Shown here one piece after another: positions 36,138 through 58,380 of a stretch of DNA of 64,000 bases. Both the position numbers and the translations under genes were made by a program. Every line of letters begins with the position of its first letter. Position 1 is the stretch's first letter. The DNA lies in assembly GCA_034401135.1 (NCBI GenBank), contig JAWZSP010000008.1, positions 62,001 through 126,000 of the forward strand, written 5' to 3'. The notes beneath the pieces were generated by a model. That model saw only the letters and a list, made by a program, of their open reading frames with translations. It ran no database searches and had not been told where the DNA came from. Origin of the DNA: Volutella citrinella. Taxonomy: Eukaryota; Ascomycota; Sordariomycetes; Hypocreales; Nectriaceae.

Positions 36138-37188
36138 GGTGATGAATGTGTAAAGATGGGCGAAGGGGAAAAGCAAGGTATCACTGATTAGGGTTGAATG
36201 GCGATTGACGGATTGGTTGTTAGGTAATTCTTCCAAGACTTGAGACGGGACTGGAGCTGGAAGGCAGTCATTTATGTTGCGACCGAAGAGATATCCCAAC
36301 GCCAGCTCGCCAGGATATGTTGAAAGCTGCTGTGGAATCCGGGGTATGTGGCATTGCGGGATTGTGGGGCAGGTCAAACCTGGGGAAGTCCATGGCCGAG
36401 TCTAGACTACGCATGCCGAGGGAACACACGGATCATGCCCCATTTCGGAGCTTAGCTTAGAACCTCCTCTTGCGATACCGACATTGGATGCCCTTATTGT
36501 GGCATGGGGAGTTGGGGAGCTACCCGGCTCTCCCGGTTTCATGAGCTGCAGGCATCAGCTTGGCTGAGATTGTGGAAAAGGCGGGGGTGGAAGGGAGGGG
36601 AGGGACCAGTTTGGATTGGTAATCTCCACACCTTCAAGCTCCAGGTCGCTTCGCTTATCACCTCTGGCTAGCGGCTGGAAGATTGATGAAATGTGGCATG
36701 CCTCGGGGAGCTAGTGAGTCCCCCACACGTTAGACTCTATTGGGACTCTAGTACGACACCGAAAGAACTGGCAAGGTGGAGATTGCAAGTGCAGATGCTC
36801 CTGCGCGCCCGCTGCCAGGTCATTGCTGACGCGGTCGGGAGGCTGGGGACTGCTGCTGGATACGTCCTAAACTAAAGTTGTCTATCGAGCGATGTGGGGG
36901 GTGGTATTGTGGACGACACAACTACAAGCACGCATGGATGATAGTCACCAACGAGCATAGATCGGCTAATCCAGAGCTCTCCCATGCTGTATTACGCGTA
37001 ATGATGGACACCTCAAGTGGGAAATGTGAGTTTAATTAGTAAAATGCATTGACAATTGGGAACACTAAAGATGCTTCTACGGAATGATATGGGTTGAGTC
37101 TAATCGACATTGAGTACAGGATGTGCCATGAGCGTGGACTCATCACGCTGTGTAGACCAAGCCAAGATTAACAAGGCAATACTCCATT
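36138..37188. other. Intergenic, about 1.05 kb
   Basis: MFS promoter side, carrying TGTGGGG motifs at 36721 and 36893. The remaining sequence has no credible ORF. Confidence 0.4.
36721..36899. promoter_or_regulatory. Two TGTGGGG motifs upstream of the MFS gene
   Basis: CCCCACA lies at 36721-36727, and TGTGGGG at 36893-36899 in the context CGATGTGGGGGGTGG. They are 585 and 755 bases upstream of the MFS start. Confidence 0.3.
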
Positions 37189-39235
37189 CTATAGTCGGCT
37201 AGTATTTTCCTTTTCCAACTCGCGAGATTCGCGGAGGCCTCGGTACTTCTTTGGCCAGATTCCTGATTTTCCAGGGGACAAGATGCCATTGGGGTCGACG
37301 GAGTCCTGGGGCATGGTTCAGCAAAAGATGAAATCGACGGCAAGATGCACAACTGGTGCTTACCTTGAGCTTTTCAACAAATCGGTTGTAGGCGTAGTTG
37401 TTGAAGGTGTTGTGTCCAGCAATCAGGTCTGCATTATTATCAACAAGCGGAACTAAGCAGAGGCCAAGTGGACATTGGACAGTAGTGGCCGTGTCTGCAA
37501 GAGTACTTACCCATGTGGTTGACGTGAGCCCGATACATTCCGTAAGCTCTTTTCTTGCTCTCCTGGTGAAGGCCACGGTACAGCTTATGGACACTGGCTC
37601 TGTGGGTTGCGTCCTGTTGGTCGTACATGAACATGTTGACCACCAGAGAGTGGCGTTCATGCATGAAGAAGTCAATAAGCGGATCAACCCCTGTGTCGAA
37701 ATAGTGCTTGTAGCTGGCCTTCATCCATTCTAGTATGAGATTTCCGGAGTTTGGAATGATGGGTGCATAGTCGCCGTGAGCTGCCTTGCCCTTGCCATTG
37801 CGAGGAAGAGCCCAGTCCACAGTTGGGAGGCTGAACAAAGAGGCAACTCCGGTAAGAAACACGCCATTCTTCTCGGGGATGGACTTGTTATCCAGGAGCT
37901 GGCCAGTCTCGCCAGTGAAGAGGTGTCCGTTTACCGTTGCCGTGGGAACCTCGCGGGAGATGATGTCTTTGATCTCGTCAAAGTGAGCTTGAATTACCCT
38001 CTTATTGCCATAGAGTCCCCATCTTGCCAGCCAGTAGGGAAGATTGTGCTCCTTTTGGAGCTCCTTCAGCCTCCACGACGGAATTGCACCCTCTCCGTCC
38101 CAGAAGTCGACACGCTTTCCAAGAGAGCTAAGCATCTCCGGGGCACCCATGAACCAAACGCAAGTGGGGATAAGGCCAGACTGTCGCATCGGGCCCAGAG
38201 AGTCCACTAAAGGAGCCAGGTCTTCGAAGTTTGGGACTTCGACGGTACACTCCATGAAGGCCTGTGGCTGAGGCGTCATCCAGATGCTAAGCTTGGTAAC
38301 AATGCCCAGGTTGCTCTGCACAAAGAGACCGTCTACGGACGGACCGTATGTGAACTTGGAGGTGAATGAAGAAGGCGAGCCGTCTATGCCCCACTGGCCC
38401 GTCCGGATCATATCCCCGTCAGCGAGCATAATTTCGAGCCCAGCTGTGCATTGATGGTGGTTGGAGTGGCTGCCGAATCCGGTTCCACGATCCAGTGTCT
38501 AGCAAGGGGTCAGTACAGCATCCCCACTGGTCGATTCAGAGTCAGGCTAACTTACGTTGCCGGTGACGCTACCCCAGCTCAAAGAAGGGGTGCTCGGCCA
38601 CACCTTCTTCTTATTCGCGGCGCAATGATCGATGAGATCCCTCCAGGTAACACCAGGCTCGACGACAGCATACGAAAACTCGTCACTGACTTCAATGATC
38701 TTGTTCATGCGGTGGAGATCCAGAGCAACGGATCCGTTGATTCTCGGCGCCGGGCCACCGTAGCTGAGCACTCATGTCAGTTGCATCACGAGTTGGCAGT
38801 GTTTTATTGTCTTACCCGAGATTCTTGCCCCTAGAGAATGTCCATAGCGGAATGGAGAACTTGTTGGCAATGCGCAGAATATCCGAAACTTGGTCGGTAG
38901 ATGATGGACTGTCCTCGCGGCTTAGCTCTCCGGATCCTTAGGCTTCTTCCGGGTAGAAAGACTCACCAGACAGCAGCACTAGGCATCTTCCTCTTGGATT
39001 CATCCTCTTCCCAAATGTCGTAAGGATCAATATAGTGAGACAGGCCATCGCCAATAAACACATTGTCTGTGCCGATAGCCTTGGAGAACTCTGCGACGGC
39101 TTGCGAAAAAGCGCTCGCACTTACGCCAGGCGGGAGGATGGATTTGATGGGAACGCGGGGAGTCGCAAAGACTTTTTGGTGGGCAGCCTCATACTCCTCA
39201 AACGGATACGTGTTCTTGGGTGTGTTTGAAGTCAT
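37189..39235 (-). CDS. Vanillyl-alcohol-oxidase-like FAD enzyme
   Basis: Exons are 39235-38967, 38908-38816, 38763-38556, 38498-37511, 37428-37364 and 37305-37189, giving 579 residues (VAO of Penicillium is about 560). It matches VAO along its length: ANKFSIPLWTFSRGKN, YGGPAPRINGSVALD, YAVVEPGVTWRDL, GSVTGN, GLFVQSNLGIVTKLSIWM, YRAHVNHM and the end DSVDPNGILSPGKSGIWP. MHERHSL aligns with the region of His422, which carries covalent FAD in VAO. YRAH aligns with Tyr503-Arg504. At the position of VAO Asp170 (PDLGGGSV) this protein has PSLSWGSV, so the residue is Ser. VAO oxidises 4-alkylphenols and 4-hydroxybenzyl alcohols in peroxisomes or cytosol. The Ser may mean changed substrate or redox behaviour. 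It is divergent from the third P450. Confidence 0.9.
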
Positions 39236-39881
39236 GGTGGAATTAATTCAAGGACCGTAAGTAGGGAGGTTAAGATGCTGAGCAATCACGTCGGTGGTGA
39301 GGATGGTAGTGATCAAGTGGACACCCACTATGTTTTATAACAAAGTACGTACTAAATTGCTGATCCATCACGGCTTGTCGGTGATAAACAAGACCCCGAA
39401 TCGTTCCACTGGCTCCCACCAATTTTTCTACCCCTCTCCGCGCGGCCAAATTTCTCCAACCACTAAACGAAAGGCAATGGTCTTTTGTCTGGGGCTGGTG
39501 GCATTTGCCAAGAGTGGAAGGGAAGTTTCCTGGGTGGATGTGGGGGACATGCCCCGCCACCTCACCTGGATGGGAGAGCTGCACATCTGAGTGGGAGCTA
39601 AGCTGTGGAGTATTTTGATGCTCTTCAATGTATTAACCCCGGGTTCATTTCCAGGCTCAAATCCCTTGCTCACTGCTCTCAGGGATACTTGACTGGCTGC
39701 TCTATTCATCTTGTGAGGAAATCCAGGAGACCAACGCACACCGACTGCCAGGGCCGTACATCCAAACCAAACGAAACCAGCCAGACGAACCGTCTAATTC
39801 TTCCGCGAAAGGCCATCTTGTTCCTTTACTTTTACTGGGAATCGCGAGGTCCGGGCTGCGCAAGTCGACTGTGTGCCGACC
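39236..39881. other. Divergent promoter of VAO-like gene and P450
   Basis: About 645 bases with a TGTGGGG motif near the middle and no gene. Confidence 0.45.
39539..39545 (+). promoter_or_regulatory. TGTGGGG motif in the VAO/P450 promoter
   Basis: Context GGATGTGGGGGACATG. It lies about 305 bases from the VAO-like start and 340 from the P450 start. Confidence 0.38.
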
Positions 39882-41630
39882 ATGATTGAATCGCTACTGT
39901 CATCATTGCCGGTCGGGCTGTCGGAACACCAATTGCTTGTCAAATCGGCTCTCGTTGCAGTCTCTGCCACTGCCCTCTTATGCAGCCTTTATCTCTGGAT
40001 TGTTCCCAACAAGCTGCTGGTATGGCCTCCCTCCCATATGTTCCAACCTGTGCCCTAGTACTGACTGCAGATATCCAGGACTCGCGAAGACGACACCTTC
40101 CCCCGGGACCCAATGGACTGCCCTTTATCGGCAATATGCTAGACCTTGCGGACTCAGACCAAGTACAACACAAGGTGCGAAAGTGGCATCAGCAGTACGG
40201 CGACATATTCTACACCAAGATCGGAGGGTCCGACTACGTGTGGCTCTCGTCACCCAAGGTGGTGAAAGATCTTATGGACAAGCGATCAAGCACCTGGTCC
40301 TCCCGACCACCCTTACCATTTGCTCAGGACGTCGGGAGTGGCGGCCTGCGTCAGCTCTTCATGGCCTACGGCCCTCGCTGGCGCCAGCTCCGCAAGCATA
40401 GCCATGCTTTGCTCAACCAAAATTCGTCGATGAAGTATAAGCCGGTGCAAGACTTTGAGTCGAAGCAGGTGTTGAGGGACCTCATCGAGAGGCCTGAGAT
40501 GTTTTATACTATCAACAGACGGTATTCTTCATCCGTTATCATGCTGGTCACATATGGATATCGCATCCCGTCTCTTGAGGATCCCATGATCAAGAAGATA
40601 TACACCGTCCTGGATAATGTGACGCACATGACAGCTCTTGGAGCGTATGCTGTGGATAGCTTCCCCTCTCTTTCAATCGTACCCGAGTTCTTCTTGGGCA
40701 ATTGGCGCACAAAGGGCAAACACATTTTTGAACACGACAGCAAGGTCTACCTCGACATGTGGATGCGACTCAAGAAGGAGGTGGATGAAGGAAGCGCCCG
40801 AGATTGCTACTGCAAGGGGTTCTATCTGGCTGATCCCAAGAAAAGCGGCATCAACGATATTGAAGCAGCCTATGCGTGTGGCGGGCTCGTCGAAGCTGGG
40901 TCCGAGACGACCGCGACAACGCTCAACAATTGGATGTTGGCAATGGTCTTGTACCCTGAAACCGCGAAGAAGGCGCAGGAAGAGATTGACCGTGTGGTTG
41001 GCGGTGATAGGCTTCCTCAATTCTCCGACGAGGAAGACTTGCCGTACCTCCGGGGCATGATCAAGGAGGTCTTGCGTTGGCGCCCAGTCAATAAGTTTGG
41101 CATGCAGCATGCCACTTCAGAGGATGACTGGTACGAGGGACACTTTATTCCCAAGGGCTCTACAGCCATTCTCAACTGGTGGTATGTCTGGAGTGGTGCT
41201 ATCAAACGTGTGTCTTGTGCTAACCATGTACGATGCCAGGGCTATCCACCGCGACCCAACTCTCTATGAAAACCCTGATCAGTTTGACCCATCCCGCTAT
41301 CTTGATAAGCCTCTTTCTGCTGCCGACTATATCAACTCTGCCAACCCCTACGATCGCGATCACTTCACATATGGGGCAGGGCGCCGCGTCTGTCCAGGTG
41401 TGCACGTGGCTGAGCTTTCTCTCTTCATCAACGTCGTGCGTGTGCTCTGGGGATTCAACATCTCAAAGGCAAAGAGACCGGACGGGACGGATATTGAACC
41501 AACGAAAGCTATGGTTCCAGGGTTCTTGTCGGTGCCAATCCCTTTCGAGTGCACCATTGTGCCAAGATCTGCTAAACACGAGAAAATCATGCTCGACGAG
41601 TTTGCAAAGGCGGAGAAGGCAGGGATCTGA
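39882..41630 (+). CDS. Cytochrome P450 monooxygenase (third of three)
   Basis: Exons are 39882-40019, 40079-41181 and 41240-41630, giving 543 residues. An N-terminal anchor (ALVAVSATALLCSLYLWIV) is followed by RRRHLPPGPNGLPFIGN. FMAYGPRWRQLRKH is the C-helix, VEAGSETTATT the I-helix, KEVLRWRP the K-helix, and FTYGAGRRVCPGVHVAE the heme loop with Cys at about residue 465. This group of P450s is common in ascomycete secondary-metabolite and detoxification clusters. The substrate is unknown. It shares a promoter with the VAO-like gene, which suggests sequential action on one aromatic substrate. Confidence 0.9.
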
Positions 41631-42000
41631 ATGGCTCACATCGATTTTGAGACTATTTGGTATTAATTGACGAGGAGCTACTCATGCTTTTTTGTTCTGC
41701 TATTGCAGTTATCTTTTAAAGACATGGAATTGATGAATCATGTGTTAAAACCGAGCCACTGAGTCTGTGTATGCCCGGCATCTCTCCCCTTCAATTCCTC
41801 TCCTTGGGTGTCTTAGGGGTTCACATACGTTCAGTCCTGGTACAGCAGGGTCAAGATCATATGAAGTACTCCCAGAATGAGCTTACAGGGCTACGTGCAC
41901 ACTTCACCTAGGCTAATATGATTTGTTCTGATAAAGCAAAATGTAGTCCAATCAATCAATGCATTATGTGCTATCTCAAAACAGTAGTCTTGGCCAATGT
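41631..42000. other. Convergent spacer, about 370 bases
   Basis: Lies between the P450 and dehydrogenase 3' ends. Nothing is recognised. Confidence 0.4.
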
Positions 42001-43161
42001 TCAGTCCAACGGTCCCCCAAGGTACTTGTAAATAATCGAGCCGTCTCGGTCCTAAATACCTGTCAGAAAGCACAACTTGGTCGACAGGTAGCGTAATGGA
42101 CACTTACCATGCACTCCTTGTCCACAGCAACCTTCTCGAAAACAGTCATGGCCGCCTCACCAATGGTTGGCGTAATTCCCACGCTCTTGGCTGCATCAAC
42201 GCCAAGTCCCACATCCTTGGGGAGCATCTGTGACTTGAAGCCCAATTTGTAGTTGTTGCTGCTGGGGGCATGAGCCACGACGCCGGGTACGGGAGCCACA
42301 TGGTCGGCCATGAAGTTTTGGCCTGTTGAGTTTTGAATAATTCGATGAAGGAGGTGCTTATCGAGACCTAAAAGTCGTCCCGTCGCCATGGCTTCGCAAT
42401 TAGCAAGGAGAATGGTACAGGAAAGGTAATTGTTGCAAATTTTGGCGGCAAGGCCATTCCCCAAGCCGCCGCAGAAGAAGGCCTTGTCTTCGGCTCCCAT
42501 GAATCCTGCAATGATTCTCAAGCGCTTCATGACGGGGTCCAACTCGGCAGCATCTTCTTCATCAGGTGCACCGATGAGGAATGAGAGTGTGCCTTTGTCC
42601 GCAGCCGGCACGCCTCCGGATACCGGACAGTCGACATACAGACCCATTCCTGCCTGTGACAACGCGTTGCCAACCTCCTTGGCGATAGCTACATCAATTG
42701 TGCTACATTCGAGGTAAAGCCTCTGGGAGTTGAAGGACGCGCCAGTCGAGCTTGCAGCAGCCACGACACCGTTGGGGGCATCAAGGTAAACTTCTCTGAC
42801 ATTCTTTCCGGACGGCACAATGGAGATGATTGCCAGAGCCTTTTCGGCGACTGACTTGGCCGAGTCTACTATTTCAATAGGGCCAAACTCCCCAAACTCG
42901 GCCTTAAACTTTTCGCATGAGGGCCGAAATACATCGTTGATGTACAGCGTGGCGTCGGCGTCCATCTTCTTACGGACATTGGCGGCCATGCCGTAGCCCA
43001 TGGCGCCAAGGCCTGGAGCATGTTAGCGGCGGAGAAGTGCCAATGTGGAGAGTGTGTGGGCTGTGGAGGCGAGTTGTGGATAGCTGATGAGGGGTTCTGT
43101 GGCCATCTGAGATGTCGGAGTGGGGATGGTACTGACCAATGAATCCAATATTGTTCTCCAT
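42001..43161 (-). CDS. 3-hydroxyisobutyrate dehydrogenase-family enzyme (first of two)
   Basis: Exons are 43161-43137, 43012-42108 and 42051-42001, giving 326 residues. It has the NAD(P)-binding GFIGLGAMGYGMAANV, the substrate block DCPVSGGVPAADKGTLSF and the catalytic-lysine block GNGLAAKICNNY. These are the three signatures of beta-hydroxyacid dehydrogenases (6-phosphogluconate dehydrogenase superfamily). Members oxidise 3-hydroxyisobutyrate or other beta-hydroxyacids, or reduce semialdehydes. The first exon encodes only eight residues. The last exon ends with IIYKYLGGPLD, whose start depends on choosing the TTTAG acceptor. It shares a promoter of about 265 bases with the metallo-hydrolase at 43427. 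A second, diverged copy lies at 48479. Confidence 0.9.
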
Positions 43162-43291
43162 GGTGTAGTCTCGTTTTAGCGTGTGCTTCAGTACCTGGTA
43201 ACCCGGGCAGTCGTCGCTGGGGCTTCCCAACCAGCTTCTTATAATATCTTGGTCGTGGTGGGTTTGACATCTGAAGCAACGACCCGCCCAC

Positions 43292-43298
43292 CCCCACA
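43292..43298 (-). promoter_or_regulatory. TGTGGGG motif in a bidirectional promoter
   Basis: CCCCACA on the plus strand, in the context CCCACCCCCACACTCGG. It lies about 130 bases from each of two divergent starts (43161 and 43427). Confidence 0.4.
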
Positions 43299-43426
43299 CT
43301 CGGGGCTATGGGGCAAAAATGAGCTAGAAGGATCCTCAATGACCTATAGAGTGCAACAGCTGTGACTAAAAACCACGATTTATAACAGGGCTTTAGTTTT
43401 CACAACGACCATCAACCTTGCACATC

Positions 43427-44631
43427 ATGACGGACACTACGAACAACGCTCAACCCAATCTGCCGGGGCACCATGGACCAGGTGTTCAAGTCCATCTTCT
43501 CGATGGGGGGAGCTTCAGCACGGCCACTCTGAGCTTCATACATGACGGAGCACCCCCAGACTTGTTCCGGATGTACGATTGGTGCTTTATGATATTCCAC
43601 AAGCCCTCTGGGAGACGTGTTCTTTGGGATCTCGGATGTAGCCATGTATGTCGTCGACCATGGCCCTTCTAGCGCCAGCGGCTTTTGTCTTCATTCCTAT
43701 GACACAAGACTAAAATGCCTCATGTTAGGATGAATCGCTCTACACGCCTTGGGTCAAGAAAGTGATGCTGCCAAGTGCCAGACCTGTAGGCCCACGGAAG
43801 CCGTTGACTACGCAGCTGGGAGAGTTGGGCGTAAACGCGAATCAGATCGACTCAGTACTCTTCAGGTATTACCTAGCCCTTCCCTATCGGGTTGCTTGCG
43901 TCGTTACCATGCTGCATTCCCCTTTGCTGACCTGTCAACTCTCAGCCATGCTCATTGGGATCACTGCAGACCCATCAGTGGCGAGTTCCCCAATGCCAAA
44001 GCATTCTTCGGCCCTGGAACCAAAGACTTTTGCTCGCCTGGCAACTTGGAGACTGGCAAACCCGATGCAGACATTGAGTGGGATGGGCGGTGGTTCGGTT
44101 CCGCGCAACATGTGACGGAACCGTGGTCAGAGCTTGACGGGGATTGGGTCCCATTCGGCACCTTTGACCGAGCCATAGACTTCTTTGGCGACGGCAGTCT
44201 CTGGGTGATTGATGCGCCTGGCCATATGCCGGGCAATCTCTGTGCGGCCGTCCGGTTGGAGGGATCCCAGGAATGGGTTCTGCTAGGTAGCGACTGTTGC
44301 CATTCCCAGTATGTTGCCATGTTTTTGCTAATTTTCCTGACATTGACTAACAGAAAGCTATCGCAGGGCAATCCTCAGAGGCGAAGCAGATATCGGGCTG
44401 TACGAAACGCCGAGTGGTGAAACGGCGGCTTACCTCCACAAAGACCTTCCTGCAGCTAAGGATACAATCGAAAGGATTAGGGAGGCTGAGTCAAAGTATG
44501 GAATACATGTCGCTCTAGCTCATGACGCGACCTGGCTCGTATCCCAGCATGATGCGGTATTGATGAGTTTGGTGGGTGAGAATAAACAAGGCGTGTGGTT
44601 GGACAGAGTAAAGCATGGTGAACGGCCATAG
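43427..44631 (+). CDS. Metallo-beta-lactamase-fold hydrolase, lactonase-like (first of two)
   Basis: Exons are 43427-43645, 43729-43865, 43946-44308 and 44358-44631, giving 330 residues. The zinc motif SHAHWDHC (HxHxDH) spans the second splice. DAPGHMPGN, GSDCCH and LAHDATW supply the later His, Asp and His ligands. Length and order fit the N-acyl-homoserine-lactone-lactonase-like group, whose fungal members open lactones or lactams. The substrate is not known; a lactone intermediate of aromatic breakdown is an inference from context. It shares its promoter with a beta-hydroxyacid dehydrogenase, and a similar pair occurs again in the cluster. Confidence 0.87.
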
Positions 44632-45010
44632 AACTTGGGTCTATATACTTTGGATTAATTTTCTTTGAATCAGATAGTTTTTTGTGAACTGTTCTACGTT
44701 CGAAGCACCCTGTGTCGTTGCCCATGCTTCAAGGTCAAGTTCTCATGCACAGTCATTCCTGCATGCTACGACCATTTCGTAGGGGTACATTCTCGCCACC
44801 CCACAATTAAGGGTGCTAAGACAACCTTATTGTTGTAAACAGTGTTCAACTCGAGGAGAGTGTGGGGTAAAAAGGGTTGCCCGTGGAGTATCTGGGGCCA
44901 CAGCGCCACCCCCCACCTCGACGATATCATATTTGATCATGGTGCAACCGCATCAAGTCAGACGAGCCAAACAGTAGCAATTGAAATTTCACTCCTACCA
45001 CTCCGTGAAT
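44632..45010. other. Promoter of the NmrA-like gene
   Basis: About 380 bases with TGTGGGG motifs at 44799 and 44861 and no gene. Confidence 0.45.
44799..44867. promoter_or_regulatory. Two TGTGGGG motifs
   Basis: CCCCACA lies at 44799-44805 (context CCACCCCACAATT) and TGTGGGG at 44861-44867 (GAGTGTGGGGTAA), 145-210 bases upstream of the ATG at 45011. Confidence 0.4.
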
Positions 45011-46000
45011 ATGAGCCTGAGAATTGGTGTTATTGGCCCAACCGGCTTTGGGGGCTCTTACTTGTGCGTCGAGTTGCTTGAACGCGGCCTTTCAGTCCGT
45101 GGCTTCTCTCGGCATCCCGAGAAGTTGGGCTCCCACGAGAGATACACTCCCCATTCAATCGATATCGAAGCAGCGTCTCTGGAGGAGTTGATTGACGCCT
45201 TCAAAGATCTTGATGTTTTGATCAACGAGTATGGGCCTCACACAGCCGGCGAGCTCGCTCTAACATACAGTGAGTAGCCCATTGATAGTCCCGGACTCAC
45301 TCAGACGTGTGCTTAACCATATTATAACACAGAGCCCTTCCTGGAACAGACTCGCAAGACTCTGATCGCCGCAAAGGAAGCAAAGGTAGGCTATTTTGTC
45401 ATGGTGGGCGGCTGCGGGTCTCTCCACATGCCGCGGAACCGGCTGCAAACGTGCAGCGAGAGCAAGGAATTCTGGCTCTGGTACCGCCGGGGTATCGCAG
45501 ACAGCCACGCTCATGTCGCATACATGGAGGAGAGGCTTGGCTCGATGGGCTCATCACTACGGGCATATCGAAATGCCAGGCGACAGCAGCGTGGTGAGCT
45601 GCCCATCGACGACGACTCCTTGAAATTGATCGAGGATTATGAGACAACTGCGATGAATAATGACGACGCACTCCAATTTGTCACGGCGGGAAGAACCAGC
45701 TTCATGTTCTTTGACGGAAACACCTCGTTCAAGTGGACCTTTGTGTCCCCCCCAGCCTTGTACCGCTCGGGAAGACGGACAGGGACTTACAAGACTATTA
45801 TTGACGAACTTCCAGTCAAGCCGGCGCTCAAAGATGGGGATGAGGGCAACTTGGAAGGGAGGCTCCATGGAATCTCTGCAGCAGATCTGGCCATTGCCAT
45901 TGCTGATGAGGTGGAGAACCAGAAGCTGGTCGGCAAGCATTGGAGTGCCTACGCGGATATGTCTGACGACACGCCAACCCCGTCATACGTTACCCTCTGA
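45011..46000 (+). CDS. NmrA-like NAD(P)-binding protein
   Basis: Exons are 45011-45269 and 45333-46000, giving 308 residues. The N terminus IGVIGPTGFGGSYLCVELL is a GxxGxxG Rossmann fingerprint of the extended SDR/NmrA type. RGFSRHPEKLG follows the second strand, as in NADP-preferring members. YFVMVGGCGSLHMP marks the central strand. A classical YxxxK is not visible, so it may be an atypical reductase or a redox-sensing regulator rather than a dehydrogenase. The middle (residues about 140-200) is charged and less conserved. Same strand as the hydrolase downstream, with its own TGTGGGG copies upstream. Confidence 0.75.
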
Positions 46001-46248
46001 GGTGGGCGGTACCGCATTCCTTGCCTAGGTAGCTTCATTGAAGATCACAATGCTGCGGACAATGCGTTGTAACAGAATGAGAATGGCCATGTCAACTATC
46101 AGAGTGCACGGCCAAACAGATGTTCTCCACATACAACCCCGCAGTGGGGGATCAATGCTCGTGCAGTATATAATATCGATGATGGCGCTTCCTTATCAGC
46201 AATAGATACTGTAAACCATTTGATCCATTCTTGTCCTGCTTCTCCAAT

Positions 46249-47121
46249 ATGCCCCTTGTGACAGACTCCGCCGGACATACATTCGTCCAACACAGCAATG
46301 GACAGCTGTCGCACTACCGCATCGATGACTTCACCGACCCCTGGCGCCCAAAGGAGACAGTTCTGATACAGCATGGGTTTGCACGCACAATCAACCACTG
46401 GTACGCGTGGGTGCCGGTTCTGTCCCAACACTATCAGGTGATTCGGCGGGATCTACGTGGCCACGGGCTCTCCAGCTACCCGGGGAAATCTGATGCCAAC
46501 AAGTACGACTACTCTCTCAATACCATTCTCGATGAGATCATCGACATGCTCGACCAGCTTGGTATCGAAAAGGTGCATTTCTTTGGAGAGTCTACGAGCG
46601 GAATGCTCGGCGAAGCGTTGGCAACCAAGCACCCCGACCGTCTGCTCTCCCTCGTTATTTGCTCGTCGCCTACCCATCTTCCGCCCAGCGCTCTCCAATT
46701 CTTCGCGTTTGGGCAGCCAGACTGGCCTACCGCCTGTCGTACGCTGGGATCTCGCGGCTGGGCTGAAGCTCTCCGTCACTCCCCTGGCACGGTGGCATCT
46801 GAAGACACTGAATATCAGGCATGGTGGCTTGAGCAGATCTCGCAGTCGGACGGCGAAGGTCTGGCGGGCTATGCCGAGTTTCTGTCTGGACTGGATGCCC
46901 GGCCCTTCTTGAAGGACATTCTTGTGCCGATGTTGATATTGGCACCAAGTAACAGCGCCGTCATGTCGGCAACCATGATGGAAGACGTAGCCAGTCAGGT
47001 GCCGGGGTCCAGGGTGGAGGTTATCGACGCTCCTGGGCATGAAATATTCGTATCTGGGGCTAGCAAATGTCAAAGTGCAGCAATGCAGTTTTGGGCTTCA
47101 ATCTCAAAACAGCAACAGTAG
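46249..47121 (+). CDS. Alpha/beta hydrolase, enol-lactonase (PcaD)-like
   Basis: Single exon of 290 residues. VLIQHGFARTINHW is the oxyanion region, RRDLRGHGLSS the following loop, FFGESTSGML the nucleophile elbow (GxSxxG) and DAPGHEIFV the catalytic-His block. The order matches 3-oxoadipate enol-lactonase-like hydrolases, although many esterases share it. The ATG at 46249 is used because the upstream in-frame codons have no other ATG. A TATATAA at 46167-46173 lies about 80 bases upstream, and GCAGTGGGGG lies near 46141. It is tail-to-tail with the SDR to its right, only 29 bases apart. Together with the decarboxylase-like gene at 49565, it recalls the last steps of a lactone-opening aromatic pathway. 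Confidence 0.85.
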   Translation: MPLVTDSAGHTFVQHSNGQLSHYRIDDFTDPWRPKETVLIQHGFARTINHWYAWVPVLSQHYQVIRRDLRGHGLSSYPGKSDANKYDYSLNTILDEIIDMLDQLGIEKVHFFGESTSGMLGEALATKHPDRLLSLVICSSPTHLPPSALQFFAFGQPDWPTACRTLGSRGWAEALRHSPGTVASEDTEYQAWWLEQISQSDGEGLAGYAEFLSGLDARPFLKDILVPMLILAPSNSAVMSATMMEDVASQVPGSRVEVIDAPGHEIFVSGASKCQSAAMQFWASISKQQQ

Positions 47122-47150
47122 CCGTATTATCGCTAGCTATGGTTCCTATC

Positions 47151-48140
47151 TCAGAATGGCACATACGGCTCCAACTTCCCTCCACCCAAATTGTTTCGGA
47201 TACGGTTCAAATCCTGCTCTTGAATCTCTTTGGCATGGCTGATATAATCGTCAATATCCACGGTCGCATCGACATAACGACCTGCCATGAAGTCCAATTT
47301 TCCTGCCGCGAGTGCAGTGACTAGCCCTGCCGCCAGCTCAGGCTCGTCATAATCCACCTTGCCGAGTGTATCAAGCACTGTTTGAACCGATTTATCTTGT
47401 CCGCGGATCCCTTCCTCAACGTACGTATTCTTCTTTGGCTTCTTTCCCTGTGCCCAATCCTCGAAATTAGTGACGAAGCGAGTCTTGACGGTGCCGGGAC
47501 TGAATGCAAAACACCGAATGTTGTAGTCCTTGTAATTCTCTTGATGCACGATCTCGGCGAGGCGAACAAGACCGAGTTTTGCCACGACGTAGCTGCCGTT
47601 GCCACTGCTCATGTTTACAGCCATGCTGGAAGTGTAGATGATGCACCCTCGCTTCTGTCGCTGCATGTAGGGAAGGCAAAGTCGCGTGAAGAGGAAGCTG
47701 TGTTGAAGACTGGCTGCCACCGTGCTCCACCAGATTTGCGGGTCAGACTCTTCAATGCGCAGCCACTGACATGGCCGACCGGCGTTGCACACCAGGATGT
47801 CGATGCCCCCGAATCGCTGATTGACCTCTTGCATTAGTAGGTCAACAGCTGATGTGTCCGTCACATCGACAGCAGCTTGCTTAGTCTCTAGACTCGGGTT
47901 GGTTTCTTTGCAAATTTCTGCCGTTTCATCCACTTCGTCCTGCTCCAGGGCGACCAGCGTCAAGGACCGAGCCCCTGCATGGGTCAGGAAAACGGATATG
48001 GCTCTTCCCAGTCCCCTCCCAGCGCCAGTTACCAGAACATTCTGGCCCTTGATGGCCCCAGCTAGCTCTTGGTTGACTCTTGGGTCTGTAGCGTAGTAGG
48101 CATCTCGACGGGGACCGCGAGTGAATTCAGGTTGTGACAT
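47151..48140 (-). CDS. Short-chain dehydrogenase/reductase (second of two)
   Basis: Single exon of 329 residues. NVLVTGAGRGLGRAIS is the cofactor motif, LVCNAGRP the NAG block, IIYTSSMAVN holds the catalytic Ser, and SYVVAKLG the YxxxK pair. FSPGTVKTRF is the usual loop after the active site. The C-terminal 70 residues extend beyond the core. The start at 48140 was preferred over upstream in-frame codons because it gives a compact N terminus. The substrate is unknown; an alcohol or quinone formed by the VAO-like enzyme or a P450 would fit the setting. Confidence 0.88.
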   Translation of the reverse strand: MSQPEFTRGPRRDAYYATDPRVNQELAGAIKGQNVLVTGAGRGLGRAISVFLTHAGARSLTLVALEQDEVDETAEICKETNPSLETKQAAVDVTDTSAVDLLMQEVNQRFGGIDILVCNAGRPCQWLRIEESDPQIWWSTVAASLQHSFLFTRLCLPYMQRQKRGCIIYTSSMAVNMSSGNGSYVVAKLGLVRLAEIVHQENYKDYNIRCFAFSPGTVKTRFVTNFEDWAQGKKPKKNTYVEEGIRGQDKSVQTVLDTLGKVDYDEPELAAGLVTALAAGKLDFMAGRYVDATVDIDDYISHAKEIQEQDLNRIRNNLGGGKLEPYVPF

Positions 48141-48478
48141 GGTTACTGTTGTGTCCGAGGAAGAGCAGACTTGGTGTGGCAGCTTTTCAGGGTCAATTTT
48201 CATGCCTCCATTATGCTGTGCTTCCCCACAAGGAGACATCAGGGCCAATTTATTCGTCTGCTAATGAGCCGAGACCGCAAAGGGAGCTTGTTGAAGAGGG
48301 TCTCACCCCCCGCCCCCACACTGCACAGCGCTACGAGGGATGCGGGGCAGCAATGCGGGACAGGACCATTGAATTGCCATATCAACAACATTTTACGCCG
48401 TTCCATCTACCAGGATACTGAGTTTCTTAGTATTTCCTCTACCCAGGCTTTGCATCCCACTGTTTGCTGTCTAGAGCT
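48141..48478. other. Bidirectional promoter of SDR and dehydrogenase
   Basis: About 340 bases between divergent starts. It holds a TGTGGGG motif at 48314-48320 and no gene. Confidence 0.45.
48314..48320 (-). promoter_or_regulatory. TGTGGGG motif in a bidirectional promoter
   Basis: Context CCGCCCCCACACTGC. It lies about 165-175 bases from each divergent start (48140 and 48479). Confidence 0.4.
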
Positions 48479-49496
48479 ATGGATACGCCGCTCAGATTGG
48501 GCTTTGTTGGCCTTGGTGCCATGGGCCTCCACATGGCTTCAAACCTCATCTCGAAAGCCCCCAAGGGCTCTACGCTTCATGTGTATGACATCTCGGAGGA
48601 TGCAATGAGAGATCTCCACCAGAAGCATCCCGGTGCTGTCACGGTTTGTGGCTCTCCCCGGGAGGTAGCCAATAAAACAGTGCGTCAAAACTACTTATGC
48701 AAACACCTACAGCTAACGACATGTGTTTGAACCACAGAACATTACCTTCACGATGCTCCCGGAAGGCTCGCACGTGCGCACTGTCTATCTCCATCCCGAG
48801 ACTGGTATCTTAAACACAGCAATTTCGTCTCGGTTGCTCGTTGACTGCTCCACGATAGACGTCGAGACGTCCCAGTTTGTGGGGGCAGAGGTCAAACGCA
48901 CATGCCCAGGAGTATCTTTCTATGATGCCCCAGTCTCTGGAGGCACATCTGGCGCTGCGGCAGGCTCCTTGACCTTTATGCTCGGCTGTAACGATGATGG
49001 CTCCGATGCGCAATGGCCGCGTCTGTACGACCTGACACAACGAATGGGCAAGGCATCAATCGCTTGCGGAGGAGCGGGCATGGGCCTGATGGCTAAGCTG
49101 TCCAACAACTACTGCTCTGGTCTCATTGCGCTCGCGACAGCTGAAGCCATGGACCTTGGGATTCGCGGCGGCATTGACCCGCGCATCCTCTCCCAGATCT
49201 TCTCCACCAGCACGGCACAGAGCAAACAATGTGATGAGTGGAACCCCGTTCCAGGTATTGTTCCCAACGCTCCCTCGAGCAATGGGTACAAGGGAGGGTT
49301 CAAGGTGCAGTTGATGGCCAAGGACTTTGGTCTCGCAATGGAAACTGCGAAGAAAGCTGGTGCCAAGGCGCTTCTCGGTGCAGTCGGACTTCAGACGTAT
49401 ATTGACGCCAGCAAAGACCCACGATGCCGAGACCTTGATTCCCGTGTTGTGTATCGGTACATTGGAGGACGCGAAGATTGGGAGAAGAAGGCTTGA
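48479..49496 (+). CDS. 3-hydroxyisobutyrate dehydrogenase-family enzyme (second of two)
   Basis: Exons are 48479-48679 and 48738-49496, giving 319 residues. LGFVGLGAMGLHMASNL is the cofactor site, DAPVSGGTSGAAAGSLTF the substrate block and MGLMAKLSNNYC the catalytic-lysine block. VPGIVPNAPSSNGYKGGFK is shared almost word for word with the copy at 42001 (VPGVVAHAPSSNNYKLGFK). The two are therefore related, but the rest is strongly diverged. Two beta-hydroxyacid dehydrogenases in one cluster suggest two oxidation steps or two substrates. It is tail-to-tail with the decarboxylase-like gene, 68 bases apart. Confidence 0.9.
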
Positions 49497-49564
49497 CATT
49501 AGAAGAGCACAATATCATGAATTGAACTATCAATGCCTCTTCATAGCTTGCAACGTCTAAGTCC

Positions 49565-50011
49565 TTACACCACCTTGTTACCCAGCTCTCGTGTCTTCTC
49601 GCCCTTCTCGTGCATTTCGTCAAGGACCTTCTCCGCCGTCTTCATAGCCTCCACCCCCGCCGGCACGCCACAATAAGTCGTGCAATGCAAAATCGCCTCC
49701 CGGATCTCCTCCTCGGTCAGGCCGTTGTTTCTCGCGCCCCGGATATGCACAGCCAGCTCTGGTGTACGGTTGAGAGCCATGAGCATGCCAATGTTGAGAA
49801 GGCTGCGCTGCTTGCGCTCCAGGCCTGGTCTTGTCCAGGCATAGCCCCAGCACCACTCCGTCACAAGTTCCTGGCCCGGACGGGAAAAGGCCGTGGAGCC
49901 GTTGGCCAGGGCTTTGTCGACGTATTCACTGCCCACGACTGCCCGACGGACCTTGAGGCCCTCGTCGAAGAGCTGGCGGTGCAGGGCATCAAACTTGGGG
50001 TCGGTGCTCAT
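49565..50011 (-). CDS. Carboxymuconolactone decarboxylase-family protein
   Basis: Single exon of 148 residues. [26 protein letters not shown]-type spacing ([19 protein letters not shown]) and [18 protein letters not shown] are the conserved blocks of the 4-carboxymuconolactone decarboxylase (PcaC) family. Unlike the AhpD group it has no CxxC; a single Cys-Gly pair is present. PcaC removes CO2 from 4-carboxymuconolactone in bacterial protocatechuate breakdown, while fungal homologues are often uncharacterised and occur in catabolic or biosynthetic clusters. Three TGTGGGG copies lie upstream at 50209, 50237 and 50454. Confidence 0.87.
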
Positions 50012-50588
50012 GGTGGCGTTGCAAGGATGCAAAGAAGTGAATAAAGAGACTGTGTTGAAGCTGTTTACGTGATTTTCGTCTTAGTTTCACGTCCGGCAAT
50101 ACAGTGTTGACACCTTCCGGTCACTCCCAGTCTTCAGACTACTTAAATATCGGGAATGTACCAAGAGGTTTGGTATCCACTGCCACCAGTTTCGCTTCTT
50201 GTTTTGTGTGTGGGGGTGATTTGTCTCTCGACTCGACCCCACATGGGGATGGAGGGGTGTCCAGAGACTCCACAGAGAAGCCATCTACAACCCATCAACC
50301 ATCGCCTGTACTGTAGCACTGTCTCTGAAGGCATTTCTGCAGTGCAGGCTGGACCCTATCACGGAGAGATGAGTTGCTAGAACATCAAATACACAGAAAA
50401 ACAGGACATGCTCCACAATCTTCAGCCGTAGAGCACTGCGGATCAGGGTGATACCCCACATGAAGCATCGTAGGACCAGCCCCACGCCCCACGACAGGCA
50501 ACTTGCCAGGTGCCAATCAACGGACTGGATCTCTTAGAACCTTCGAGACGCGTTGCTGTAGTATTGTCTGATATTTGCAATAATCTGC
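50012..50588. other. Promoter region of the decarboxylase-like gene
   Basis: About 575 bases with three TGTGGGG motifs. I see no gene. Confidence 0.45.
50209..50460. promoter_or_regulatory. Three TGTGGGG motifs
   Basis: TGTGGGG lies at 50209-50215 (TGTGTGGGGGTGA). CCCCACA lies at 50237-50243 (CGACCCCACATGG) and at 50454-50460 (ATACCCCACATG). They are roughly 200-450 bases upstream of the start at 50011. Confidence 0.4.
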
Positions 50589-51627
50589 TTAATCATCACA
50601 AGCCCCAAAGAAGCGACTCCGATTGCCCTCGTCATTCTCCCAATCCACATCGTGCGCCAGAATCACCTCCACTCCCTGCTTCTCAATCTCTTTGATCCGA
50701 GCAAGGGTTTGCAGGGCCCTTTCCTTGTCTGCATGTATACAGCATGTCTGTCCATTTGCATCCGCCCATTCGCCGATGGCTTTCTCCCCACGATAGATTC
50801 GGCGGTCGTGACAGCAGTCGCCACCCAGATACACCCAGCGATGGCCACCATCCGGCACACTTACGCGAACAAGCAGGTTGATGTGTCCTTGGAGGTGCCC
50901 GGGTGCATCAATAATGTAGACACTTCCATCTTGGAATACATCTAGAGCAGCCGGGAGGGAGCTCAGCGCTTTCCATGGCCCAGACAAGCCGAGTGGCGCG
51001 TCGGTGTTCTCAGACGCTTCTCCCTTTTCTGTATCGGGAAGCTCTATTGTCCGCGCTGGATCCAGAAGATCGGCTTCAAAGAAGGAGTGGCCTCCTCGTA
51101 GCGTGTGTCGGCCGTGCAGAAGATCCAACGAGCCTGAACCAACAACAAATGTGCTTTTGGGAAAATCTCGGGGCTCCCCGACATGATCCCAGTGTACCTG
51201 TAGCCATCTTAGCTCTTTATTGCTTCGCTGGATGTAGATGAGAGCTCATTGCTTAACCTACATGCGAATATATGACATAATCGATGTCGTCTGGAGTCAG
51301 GCCACCCCTCCGAAGGCTCTTGACCACGTCAGGATCAGTTGACAGAGGCTGGCGTGTGGCAGCATGGCGCTGAAGCGGCTCCGAGTAGCGACTTATATCC
51401 CGTCGGAGCCCCAGATCCCAGACAATCCTGGTTACTTTCTGCGTTTCTGGGTGAGTGTGTTGGATGAGGAAGCAGAGCGATGGAACCGTTTTGCGGGCGT
51501 CAGGGGGGACTGGGCTCAAAATCTGGTACTCGGGCAGCGAGAATCGACCCCCCGCCAACGCGTGAAGTTGGACCTTTTGGCCACTTGATGACGCTGCATC
51601 GGCTGGAGAAAGGGAGAACGAAGCCAT
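50589..51627 (-). CDS. Metallo-beta-lactamase-fold hydrolase, lactonase-like (second of two)
   Basis: Exons are 51627-51262 and 51197-50589, giving 324 residues. The zinc motif SHVHWDHVG (HxHxDH) spans the splice. DAPGHLQGH, GGDCCHD and LAHDVDW give the remaining His, Asp and His ligands. It shares with the copy at 43427 the blocks VWDLG / WDLGCS, IIDAPGH / VIDAPGH and the Asp-Cys-Cys-His run, so both belong to one lactonase-like group but are well diverged. A lactone or cyclic ester released in the pathway is the likely kind of substrate. A TGTGGGG motif lies at 51866, about 240 bases upstream. Confidence 0.87.
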
Positions 51628-51823
51628 GGCGATGTGTTGAGTGTGAGTTTAGGTCTTTGTCAGTTTTGGCTGGTGTTGCAGTATTGCGATCTTAGTACGA
51701 TGTTATCAGCACAATTGGCGTGCTCATCACTCATTAACTGTCAATCGCACACCCACATCCACTAGACGAATCTTATACTAGTCAGACTGCCACTATGACC
51801 TTGTAGGCCTGTCGCTGGGCTAC

Positions 51824-51873
51824 ATCGCAATAGTGGCGAGTCTAAACGCGGGGTCAATCACCCACCCCCACAT
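51824..51873 (+). repeat. Dispersed repeat, copy 1
   Basis: About 50 bases starting ATCGCAATAGTGGCGAGT. They match 60910-60959 at roughly four bases in five, most differences being transitions. It overlaps the TGTGGGG motif at 51866. Confidence 0.5.
51866..51872 (-). promoter_or_regulatory. TGTGGGG motif upstream of second metallo-hydrolase
   Basis: Context CCCACCCCCACATTGG, about 240 bases upstream of 51627. A further copy is at 52299-52305 (CTACCCCACAATG). Confidence 0.35.
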
Positions 51874-51924
51874 TGGTGGTGTTATACACCAGCTCTTCTC
51901 TCGGCCACAAGACAATTCCAACGG

Positions 51925-52140
51925 TGGGACGAAGCAGTATAGCGAGCTGTTCCGAGTAAAATTGGGCAACGACAACTGGGTGTCCACATGCAGCCATGAA
52001 GCTATCGATGAATCTGGTAGAGCTCCAACGACTGTAGCTTCTGACGTCTTCTCGGATGGCAACCGAATACTGTTTCTTACCTATGGCCCCAAGTGGCGAA
52101 AGCTTCATGCCATCGCACACAATAACGGCCTCGGAGTAAT
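51925..52140 (+). pseudogene. Cytochrome P450 fragment
   Basis: One frame reads YSELFRVKLGNDNW, a gap, then APTTVASDVFSDGNRI and LFLTYGPKWRKLHAI. These are the beta-1 strand and the B'-to-C-helix region of fungal P450s, where YGxxWRxLR is the heme-contacting C-helix. Some expected residues between the blocks are missing. The stretch ends within about 25 codons and has no start, I-helix or heme loop. It is a relic of a fourth P450. Confidence 0.6.
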
Positions 52141-52569
52141 ACAAACCAAGCTAGGAATTTGAAGTTAAGAAACATATTTATGATATTACAGCTGACAATG
52201 CAGATGAAAATAGTTTCTCTATGCACGTACGACGATACACGACTGCTCACAAAGAGACAGGAGTTTGCAGCAGTGTACTAGGAAAGGGTGCAGTCCTACC
52301 CCACAATGTGAAATTGTTGGCTGTGCATATGTCGTTTAATCACATTAGATGCAGGCCAAGATATTCGCATCTCGCTATAAAAAGACACCGGCTACAAACT
52401 TGCATTAATTTCGAGCAGTCTAACAATTTTTCTGACGTCCCGTCATCCTTCTCCCAGTCCAATGCAGACTCATGCTTTCTCAACCCGAAACCGCTCTATT
52501 AGCCAGGCTCCCCACACAACGCGGAAGGAGTCCTGCTGTTTTCAGATTGATCATTGGGGAAAGGAGATC

Positions 52570-57382: not shown

Positions 57383-58380
57383 ATTTTTTTTTCGCAGTCT
57401 TTTGTCGGGCACGTAGAACAGCAGGAATGACTAGGCGTCGTGGTAAATGGATGGGTTCGTTTCCAACAGATCGAGGCAAAGGCCGCTGCTTGGGGTGGAA
57501 ATATGAAAGGCAATAAGGAGGCAAGCTAAAGGAGGGAAAGCCGCCCTGTATCAGTGTAATACCAGGTCAAGATGATTTCTCAAGTGGCTTTGTTGATTTG
57601 AGGGAGGATTTGGTCACATCTTATTATAAATCCGACGCGTAGTGTAATTCCCGTTTGATGGCGAGCCTTGTACGTGAAGGTAATCTTCTCGCTTTGACCC
57701 TAAAATCGCAAGCATCCCTGTCCCTACGGACTCTCCCTGCATGCCCGTATGCCCCGATCGACTCCGTCAAGTTCCCTCTGGCCAATGGCTACTCGACGGC
57801 TGGTTGACTTGTTCGATAAGGTAGACAATTTGGTGTTGGTTGGTGCATCACGGACTTTCGGTCGGTGGCGTCAGCTCGAAATAAGTCCGGGCCCACTGCT
57901 TTAGTGCCTGGTGTGGAGACGCACTTTCGGATTATAAGAAAAGGCCACCGTCTCTAAGTCCGTCCCCATCGTCTCTTCCCTCCACACTCTGTGCAACAGT
58001 CAGCCAGGCCTGTGGGGAATCGTGACGCTTGATTGGTCCCTAATAGCATCGATCACCACTTCGGCAAGCTTCAGGTACGCGGCGGCCCCTTGCTGCCCCT
58101 AATTATGCCTTCTAGAAATTTGCTAATGTCGGACTTTTGAGAATTTTCAGAAATAGACTTTCTGTACGTGGACAAGGGCCTGTATCCCGCAGATTACGCC
58201 AGCTACCACTGCCTAAATGCGCGGCTTGTCACCATCGTCGCATGCATAGGCGACCGACGTGAGAATCGCGCATTTCTAGCCTAAACTTTTGTTGCCAGGG
58301 GGAGAAAACGATGACTGCTAGTCGCTGACTTGACGGCCACTCTCCAGCTCTTCTTACCTCCACAGTGTACTTATATCAAC
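57383..58380. other. Divergent promoter of ABC pump and Zn2Cys6 regulator
   Basis: About 1 kb with no gene. It has an AT-rich TTATTATAAA about 240 bases from the pump start and a TGTGGGG at 58011-58017. Confidence 0.45.
58011..58017 (+). promoter_or_regulatory. TGTGGGG motif in the ABC/regulator promoter
   Basis: Context GCCTGTGGGGAATCG. It lacks the preceding A of the extended form, so it is a weaker match than those at 31-52 kb. Confidence 0.25.

Follow-up and report, generated by a model that had tools for sequence, protein, structure and literature searches.

Genes of the locus

The window is the whole 64,000-nt stretch of DNA that was analysed; it lies on contig C8, and C2, C3 and C4 denote other contigs of the same genome. 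Gene models were set by hand in an intron-aware manner because the permissive gene finder over-split genes. This gave a cluster locus of ten models between 37.2 and 51.6 kb, about 100 kb from a contig end. All ten spliced models have intact frames, and each matched a Pfam family: FAD_binding_4, p450, NAD_binding_2 plus NAD_binding_11 (twice), Lactamase_B (twice), NAD_binding_10, Abhydrolase_1, adh_short and CMD. The ten enzyme genes that a sequence-only reading had named are thus all present.

The leftmost gene encodes a VAO-like flavoprotein of 579 aa (37189-39235, minus strand; FAD_binding_4), spliced from six exons (38967-39235, 38816-38908, 38556-38763, 37511-38498, 37364-37428 and 37189-37305). 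It is followed by a gene for a 543-aa cytochrome P450 with an intact haem motif (39882-41630, plus strand; p450). Next are HIB1, a beta-hydroxyacid dehydrogenase of the HIBADH family (42001-43161, minus strand), MBL1, a lactonase-type metallo-beta-lactamase-fold hydrolase with a HAHWDH motif and a Lactamase_B match (43427-44631, plus strand), and an NmrA-like/atypical SDR protein (45011-46000, plus strand), with both HIB1 and the NmrA-like protein defined by model and Pfam match. The PcaD-like alpha/beta hydrolase ABH (46249-47121, plus strand; model and Pfam match) carries a GESTSG motif, and a short-chain dehydrogenase/reductase, SDR, identified by Pfam, occupies 47151-48140 on the minus strand. 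The right part holds a second HIBADH-family dehydrogenase, HIB2 (48479-49496, plus strand; model and Pfam match), a 148-aa CMD or PcaC-like protein (49565-50011, minus strand; PF02627, 4e-20) and a second lactonase-type MBL-fold hydrolase, MBL2 (50589-51627, minus strand; model and Pfam match), with the motif HVHWDH. The P450 relic noticed earlier is read as an N-terminal remnant (51833-52162, plus strand); it had no Pfam match but aligns to the cluster P450 (35% over 78 aa).

The transporters reported on the two sides were also recovered. On the left, an MFS transporter gene (34594-36401, minus strand) has an MFS_1 match of 5.7e-28 in the frame 34594-35832; the frame 35871-36401 has no Pfam match and is presumably the first exon of the same gene. 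On the right, a PDR-type ABC transporter gene (52570-57412, minus strand) has ABC2_membrane and PDR_CDR matches in the frame 54663-56216; it flanks the cluster and is a possible member.

The VAO-like oxidase and its partner enzymes

The VAO-like protein has the VAO/PCMH fold. It scored 265 bits against PsVAO, with 31-32% identity by structure, and among the matches listed in the structure comparison there were only VAO/PCMH and lactate-dehydrogenase-like flavoproteins. It matches an F. solani protein at 84%. The phenol-binding triad Tyr108/Tyr503/Arg504 (VAO numbering) is Y/Y/R in the window protein and is retained in 116, 114 and 116 of 116 homologues, respectively. The position of Asp170 is N in the window protein, and the columns aligned with His422 are L/V; none of the 116 homologues has D at the first position or H at the second (two are gapped at each). 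Asp170, which is catalytic, is described as conserved in all VAOs examined, and the flavin-linking His422 as conserved with two exceptions (PMC10404669, section 4). The identification of the core oxidase as a VAO therefore held for fold and triad and failed for these two residues, and since both are absent from the window protein and from all 114 homologues with a residue there, we rejected a VAO in the strict sense. Consequently, 4-alkylphenol oxidation, which the sequence-only reading took from VAO, cannot simply be transferred to this protein. A HERH motif lies just upstream of the His422 column and is kept in 85 of the 116 homologues, so the flavin link may have shifted to it.

The remaining enzymes were compared with NCBIfam models, using nine of the ten proteins or their orthologues (the P450 was left out). 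No listed family reached its cut-off; for the SDR, the listed families were 25 of 157. Against models that are bacterial, CMD scored 136.7 bits with PcaC, 4-carboxymuconolactone decarboxylase (TIGR02425, cut-off 155.7), ABH scored 92.0 bits with PcaD, 3-oxoadipate enol-lactonase (TIGR02427, cut-off 255.85), and HIB1 and HIB2 scored 213.8 and 255.6 bits with 3-hydroxyisobutyrate dehydrogenase (TIGR01692, cut-off 291.6). MBL1 (46.6 bits) and MBL2 (57.8 bits) were far below the AttM cut-off of 390 bits, and MBL2 (46.2 bits) was below that of 4-pyridoxolactonase (325 bits). The functions of the single steps are therefore guesses. The metal ligands of the MBL fold, HxHxDH and the downstream His, Asp and His, are at least 90% conserved among 32 sequences (H120, H122, D124, H125, H212, D235 and H292 of P0121), and the metal-ligand motifs are likewise present in MBL1 and MBL2. 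The closest solved proteins to both are 4-pyridoxolactonase and AHL lactonases (3aj3, 9khq and AiiA), to which MBL1 is only ~20% identical.

Paralogous loci and a shared promoter motif

The cluster consists of two modules that recur elsewhere in the genome. Module A (P450-HIB1-MBL1-NmrA-ABH) recurs on C4 at 671.8-684.7 kb, with paralogues of the P450 (60%), HIB1 (57% in one part and 43% in the other), ABH (60%) and the NmrA-like protein (65-67%); MBL1 is represented there by a C-terminal piece only (38%). In a search of the 45.1-Mb genome, the NmrA-like protein had no homologue besides the C4 one, and ABH had none above 35 bits besides its close C4 copy. The best other match of the SDR in the genome has 28% identity. 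Module B (VAO-HIB2-CMD-MBL2) recurs on C2, with HIB2 at 49%, CMD at 81% and the VAO-like protein at 69%, and an MBL2-like gene 23 kb away from the other copies; it recurs partly on C3, with CMD, MBL2 and HIB2. The same gene sets are thus found at three other loci of the genome.

Adjoining the C4 copy of module A are genes for an intradiol dioxygenase, a FAD_binding_3 monooxygenase and an iron alcohol dehydrogenase (Fe-ADH); the family of the last includes maleylacetate reductase. The same three types of gene occur at 43-54 kb of C8. The ring-cleavage dioxygenase there (50.5-51.2 kb) is outside the window, ~48 kb to the left of the cluster, so the earlier statement that no such enzyme is seen is true within the cluster region and false for its neighbourhood. 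Because the C4 paralogues sit beside ring-cleavage-type genes, mineralisation is indicated. This bears on the strongest alternative, a detoxification cluster. Such a cluster would open and modify a toxic lactone or lactam from plants, in the manner of FDB1/FDB2 with benzoxazolinone in Fusarium verticillioides, and would export the products with no carbon entering ring cleavage. Two lactonase-like MBL enzymes, an NmrA-like gene and the nearby MFS and PDR transporters would suit such a role, and FDB1, as far as its published description was available, also has NmrA-like, MBL and MFS genes. Against it stand the C4 paralogues of NmrA, P450, HIB1 and ABH next to these three genes, and the FDB paper's main text contains none of the terms 'Vanillyl', 'hydroxyisobutyrate' and 'carboxymuconolactone'. 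We regard detoxification as unlikely.

The sequence-only reading also allowed for tailoring, and the cluster could make or modify a secondary metabolite built on a scaffold that an enzyme encoded elsewhere supplies. Biosynthetic clusters, too, typically contain P450, VAO-like, SDR and transporter genes, and the region lies ~100 kb from a contig end. A PF00109 search found no ketosynthase within 2.7 Mb on C8, and polyketide tailoring is therefore disfavoured; it was rejected, the nearest ketosynthase on C8 being at 2.897 Mb. HIBADH, CMD and lactonase-type MBL proteins belong to chiefly catabolic families, and the paralogous clusters carry ring-cleavage genes, which together make a biosynthetic role very unlikely.

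The promoters share a motif. TGTGGGG, found post hoc, picked from many 7-mers and assessed with raw P values, occurs at 13 sites in seven of the eight promoter-bearing regions of the cluster (2.1 expected from the non-coding DNA of other loci). The controls were 13 random 10-kb stretches that had earlier been picked for codon training. A 50-kb stretch of C2 has 29 TGTGGGG sites (5.8 expected), with 7 in its 6.6-kb core (0.8 expected); for GTGGGGG the corresponding counts are 14 (7.7 expected) and 1 (1.0 expected). The C2 stretch is thus strongly enriched for the TGTGGGG form only, and this form was preferred after both had been counted there. One GTGGGGG site lies in the promoter between the VAO-like and P450 genes (39540-39546, plus strand); others start at 36720, 43291, 44910, 48313 and 51865 on the minus strand and at 36894, 46144 and 50210 on the plus strand. 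The region next to the MFS gene (36402-37188) has two such sites, and this transporter is a probable member of the regulon. TGTGGGG is in mild excess in the window left of 30 kb (8 vs 3.5 expected), and its excess on C4 (4 vs 1.5) and at 32-62 kb of C8 (7 vs 3.5) is not significant. The motif is missing from the 467 bp between converging cluster genes, which says little because only ~0.2 sites are expected there. GTGGGG fits the CreA site SYGGRG (PMC8710005, in the part available). No enrichment is seen for GCGGGG, a further variant of this site (9 vs 7.7 and 6 vs 2.9 expected), so a dedicated regulator would be as likely a reader of the motif as CreA, the mediator of carbon catabolite repression. 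Candidate transcription factors for this role are encoded at 23.7-30.5 kb.

Parts of the gene set are also linked in other ascomycetes, as judged by a proxy for gene order, shared contigs or near locus tags. HIB1 and HIB2 are 88% and 83% identical to proteins of F. solani and F. solani-melongenae. For most entries of the homologue lists, however, the contig carries no second member of the set, and the VAO-like gene of Sporothrix eucalyptigena is separated from MBL1 and HIB2. A lack of conserved synteny in relatives, which the sequence-only reading had named as evidence against a cluster, was thus not what we found, and the linkage is partial. Fungal subtelomeres accumulate catabolic genes, and this partial linkage would also suit a chance subtelomeric gathering with no joint pathway, but recurrence of the genes at three paralogous loci and the common promoter motif point to a non-chance grouping and make coincidence highly improbable.

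A predicted degradative route and its known relatives

Collectively, these results suggest that the locus is probably one co-regulated degradative cluster for a plant-derived phenolic, composed of two modules. The paralogous clusters with ring-cleavage genes, the common promoter motif and the lack of a nearby ketosynthase support the breakdown of a plant or lignin-type phenolic proposed earlier, with the VAO identity and the absence of ring cleavage removed from that proposal. The substrate would most likely be a 4-alkylphenol of phenylpropanoid type whose side chain bears a lactone or a hydroxy acid. The MFS protein would import this compound and the P450 would hydroxylate or O-dealkylate it. 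The VAO-like flavoenzyme may hold the phenolate through Tyr-Tyr-Arg and, using a base and a flavin link that differ from those of VAO, oxidise the side chain in para position. HIB1, HIB2 and SDR would then act on this side chain, oxidising its beta-hydroxy-acid or alcohol groups, MBL1 and MBL2 would open lactones, CMD would decarboxylate, and ABH would cleave an ester, an enol-lactone or a C-C bond. The di- or trihydroxybenzene released in this way could then undergo intradiol cleavage encoded elsewhere, at 50.5 kb of C8 or on C4.

More tentatively, the VAO-like clade could be a widespread ascomycete lineage of its own within the 4-phenol oxidoreductases, one that has lost the catalytic Asp as well as the flavin-linking His and uses another base and flavin link (the conserved HERH). 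Together with HIB1, MBL1, NmrA and CMD it might form an undescribed peripheral route from a lactone-bearing phenolic to an intradiol-cleavage substrate, under one TGTGGGG-binding regulator. The steps that follow the initial attack in fungal breakdown of plant phenolics are largely unmapped. The locus offers a defined, testable gene set, and ring cleavage as the downstream step is already indicated by its paralogous copies. It also provides a candidate regulatory element that connects the window cluster with the one on C2, and VAO-like enzymes of a clade unable to work exactly as VAO.

FDB1/FDB2 of Fusarium verticillioides, which act on benzoxazolinone, resemble the locus in that a xenobiotic cluster contains genes for an MBL-fold hydrolase and an NmrA-like protein. 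In its available description, FDB1 has its own MBL1, amidase, dienelactone hydrolase, salicylate hydroxylase and transcription factor, and its gene table has no VAO, HIBADH or CMD; unlike FDB1, the ten models here include no amidase or N-acetyltransferase. Membership in FDB1 was rejected, with only the MBL and NmrA types common to the ten models. p-Cresol methylhydroxylase, which has a Tyr-linked flavin and a cytochrome c subunit, and pinoresinol hydroxylase (1dii, 9h40) are among the closest known systems to the VAO-like protein. From PsVAO, DcVAO, RjEUGO and the Marinicaulis flavus enzyme 8s7n, all of the VAO/eugenol oxidase family, the window protein and 114 of 116 homologues differ at the Asp170 and His422 positions.

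VAO-containing degradative gene clusters of fungi are a published class (Gluck-Thaler and Slot 2018, applied in PMC10735191), so the suggestion of a possibly undescribed cluster is only half right. The likeness is the grouping of a VAO homologue with further genes; the core protein here lacks Asp170 and His422. According to the available part of PMC10735191, the class is defined by a VAO homologue of at least 50 bits, at least 30% identity and 50-150% length, with at most six intervening genes. The 265 bits given above refer to PsVAO and the 31-32% identity to the structure comparison, and the cluster is a possible member of the class. A HIBADH/MBL/NmrA/CMD make-up was not found in this class as known through PMC10735191. 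In the accessible literature, we found no description of VAO with HIBADH, MBL, NmrA or CMD in one cluster, or of such a gene set for A. nidulans AN8634-AN8638, and the available passages of PMC5371717, PMC12335040, PMC13094099 and PMC10512309 contain no such cluster. In Scedosporium, a dioxygenase and a maleylacetate reductase make up a short pathway (PMC8283699, in the part available). Comparable genes occur here outside the cluster itself, at the C4 and C8:43-54 kb loci, where an intradiol dioxygenase and a FAD_binding_3 monooxygenase are accompanied by an Fe-ADH that may be a maleylacetate reductase.

Gene content and modular organisation of the cluster

The genome holding the window comprises 45.1 Mb in 26 contigs, the window itself being C8:62001-126000. 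The ten enzyme genes proposed by the sequence-only reading are present: short introns are typical of them, all ten spliced models have intact frames, and Pfam assigned the expected family to each. The MFS gene and the ABC pump that it had placed on either side were likewise confirmed, the latter as a PDR-type pump. Its P450 relic, which has no Pfam match, is identifiable solely because it aligns with the P450 of the cluster (35% over 78 aa). The VAO-like flavoprotein model is 579 aa, the same length as its F. solani orthologue. Fusarium solani and F. solani-melongenae supply the closest named relatives of the cluster proteins, which makes the fungus a probable relative of the F. solani group; identities are 84% for the VAO-like protein, 82% for the lactonase-type MBL-fold protein MBL1, and 88% and 83% for the HIBADH-family proteins HIB1 and HIB2. 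The SDR is without a close paralogue in the genome (best match 28%). Elsewhere in the window, fragments of another P450 gene lie at 32237-33216 (PF00067 matches at 32758-33216 and, below cut-off, at 32361-32894), perhaps an intron-split or decayed gene, and 61114-62142 gave a weak, sub-cut-off match to acetoacetate decarboxylase (PF06314).

Parts of the cluster are repeated in the same genome beside ring-cleavage genes. A paralogue locus of module A (P450-HIB1-MBL1-NmrA-ABH) at C4:671.8-685.8 kb holds the P450 (60%), HIB1 in two parts (57% and 43%), the alpha/beta hydrolase ABH (60%), the NmrA-like protein (65-67%) and a C-terminal MBL1-like piece (38%), together with an iron alcohol dehydrogenase, a FAD_binding_3 monooxygenase and an intradiol dioxygenase in which both domains are present. 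Beyond this copy, genome searches gave no further homologues of the NmrA-like protein at E<=0.001 and no matches to ABH above 35 bits. Were positions random, two given paralogues would fall 14 kb or less from a third with a probability of about 4e-7. A locus of module B (VAO-HIB2-CMD-MBL2) at C2:4964.9-4971.3 kb contains HIB2-like (49%), PcaC-like CMD (81%), second HIBADH-type (33%) and VAO-like (69%) genes. A weak MBL-like piece (30%) lies at C2:4973.1 kb; a more complete MBL2-like gene follows 23 kb further on from the module B locus, with homogentisate dioxygenase and FAD_binding_3 frames between it and the module B genes; an iron alcohol dehydrogenase lies at C2:4987.3 kb. A second CMD-domain frame directly follows the C2 VAO-like gene (L027:6695-7417; C2:4971.7-4972.4 kb). 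CMD, MBL2-like and HIB2-like genes form a partial module B locus at C3:5387.7-5390.9 kb. Since the two gene sets occur separately on other contigs, the window cluster joins both.

A shared promoter element

CCCCCAC/GTGGGGG tops a 7-mer enumeration of the seven cluster upstream regions and occurs in all seven, where the remaining retrieved loci would predict 0.51. With the MFS gene's region included, and expectations taken from non-coding DNA elsewhere, GTGGGGG was found in 8/8 promoter-bearing regions (9 sites vs 1.5 expected) and TGTGGGG in 7/8 (13 vs 2.1). TGTGGGG occurs 29 times in the whole window, a number reached in none of 100 shuffles. The window motif was noticed first and tested afterwards; the C2 stretch served as a test on separate DNA. 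There, 50 kb contain 29 TGTGGGG sites compared to 5.8 expected from 13 control loci, with 9 sites in L027 (0/200 shuffles as high) and 7 in L029 (1/200), both C2 loci; GTGGGGG is only mildly raised (14 vs 7.7). With tblastn ends taken as gene starts, the C2 sites precede the HIB2-like gene by 158-226 bp, the second HIBADH-type gene by 267-321 bp, the VAO-like gene by 231 bp and the MBL2-like gene by 136-515 bp. The TGTGGGG excess was insignificant at the C4 locus (4 vs 1.5) and in C8:32-62 kb (7 vs 3.5). Four TGTGGGG copies, all on the plus strand, fall within 73 bases at window 27168-27240, between SDR frames and a frame that may belong to a transcription factor gene. Two putative genes for fungal transcription factors, with sub-cut-off Fungal_trans matches, lie on the minus strand at 23714-25114 and 29071-30450 and are candidates for the cluster regulator.

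Active-site residues of the VAO-like oxidase

By overall sequence and by predicted fold, using a structure model of the F. solani orthologue, the VAO-like protein is of the VAO/eugenol oxidase kind. Residues were aligned for 8s7n, a Marinicaulis flavus enzyme of this family, and 116 homologues (500-620 aa, among the best 120 of 766). The phenol-binding positions are conserved (Tyr108 in 116/116, Tyr503 in 114/116, Arg504 in 116/116). None of the 116 has Asp at the Asp170 position or His at the two His columns (His422), two being gapped at each; a single homologue, P0004, has Asp three residues upstream of the Asp170 position, and HERH immediately precedes the His columns in 85 of the 116. According to the available text of one study, Asp170 is conserved in the ~200 fungal sequences examined, as is His422 with two exceptions (PMC10404669); the accessible part of another reports a different VAO subfamily that retains the catalysis-essential residues (PMC12909556). 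Within the genome, two other VAO-like genes (C8:54.7-56.9 kb and C4:38.2-40.1 kb) have the Asp-His of the Asp170 site, and the C2 paralogue has the divergent residue pattern. A further VAO-like gene (L032, C8:2293.4-2295.5 kb) has Glu at the Asp170 position (YGEHF) and a canonical-looking RELHH stretch, and is, judged from these residues, another active-site variant.

Linkage in other fungi, ring-cleavage genes and proposed function

Conserved synteny was assessed by a proxy, namely the same organism with a contig of equal size, or near locus tags, with listings compared by eye for the best 120 of 122 MBL1, 120 of 7364 HIBADH and 120 of 766 VAO-like matches; HIB1 or HIB2 type was set by identity. 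Linkage was partial in several ascomycetes. MBL1 is linked to a HIBADH gene in at least 11 of the 120 MBL1 matches listed, including Drepanopeziza brunnea (MBL1 002651, HIB1 002652, HIB2 002657), Sporothrix stenoceras (010336/010337), Exophiala bonariae (001306/001304), Aspergillus germanicus (101 kb contig) and a Pyrenochaeta (20 kb contig). At least three of those listed link MBL1 to a VAO-like gene (F. solani; Aspergillus pseudoustus, on a contig of 103 kb; Penicillium verrucosum, 007318/007321), and at least four link VAO-like and HIBADH genes: Clonostachys rosea, on a 54 kb contig, and Ilyonectria, Neoarthrinium and Cryphonectria, whose co-occurrence on contigs of 2.0, 0.7 and 5.1 Mb is weak evidence. 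In F. fujikuroi and Neofusicoccum ribis, MBL1 and NmrA are joined in one gene model, as though encoded next to each other. The 774 aa Cladophialophora immunda model P0090 carries both MFS domains and a VAO-like protein, as if these genes were neighbours, as in the window. Most of the matches listed are without a partner, though with listings limited to the best matches this may not reflect real absence. Evidence against linkage comes from S. eucalyptigena, whose VAO-like gene (005555) is distant from MBL1 (010639) and HIB2 (010642), and from Ilyonectria sp. MPI-CAGE-AT-0026, where the MBL1 match listed sits on a different contig.

To the left of the window, C8:43.4-60.1 kb (L024, L009) holds an iron alcohol dehydrogenase, a Zn2Cys6 factor, an intradiol dioxygenase, a phenol 2-monooxygenase-like gene, a VAO-like gene with the canonical Asp, a zinc alcohol dehydrogenase and a carboxylesterase. 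This compact set is likely a lower aromatic pathway and looks like a phenol-to-hydroxyquinol route; the available text of PMC8283699 describes that short pathway as an intradiol dioxygenase plus a maleylacetate reductase. About 36 kb separate the end of the set from the MFS gene in the window, and the set might act together with the cluster or independently of it. Further iron alcohol dehydrogenase/intradiol dioxygenase pairs, within about 11 kb, lie at C6:437-439 kb and C5:396-408 kb, indicating several ring-cleavage modules in the genome.

The cluster would attack, step by step, a phenolic whose side chain carries a lactone or a hydroxy acid, yielding an intradiol substrate. An NCBIfam scan of nine of the ten cluster proteins or their orthologues (all except the P450) placed none in a listed family at the curated cut-off; the nearest scores were CMD against PcaC (136.7 of 155.7) and HIB2 against HIBADH (255.6 of 291.6). 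The sequence-only reading had called the cluster possibly undescribed. This particular make-up was not found in the parts of the literature searched, but degradative clusters containing VAO are a published class, as the available text of PMC10735191 describes. The kind of cluster is thus already known, and the newest part of the finding is the oxidase clade.
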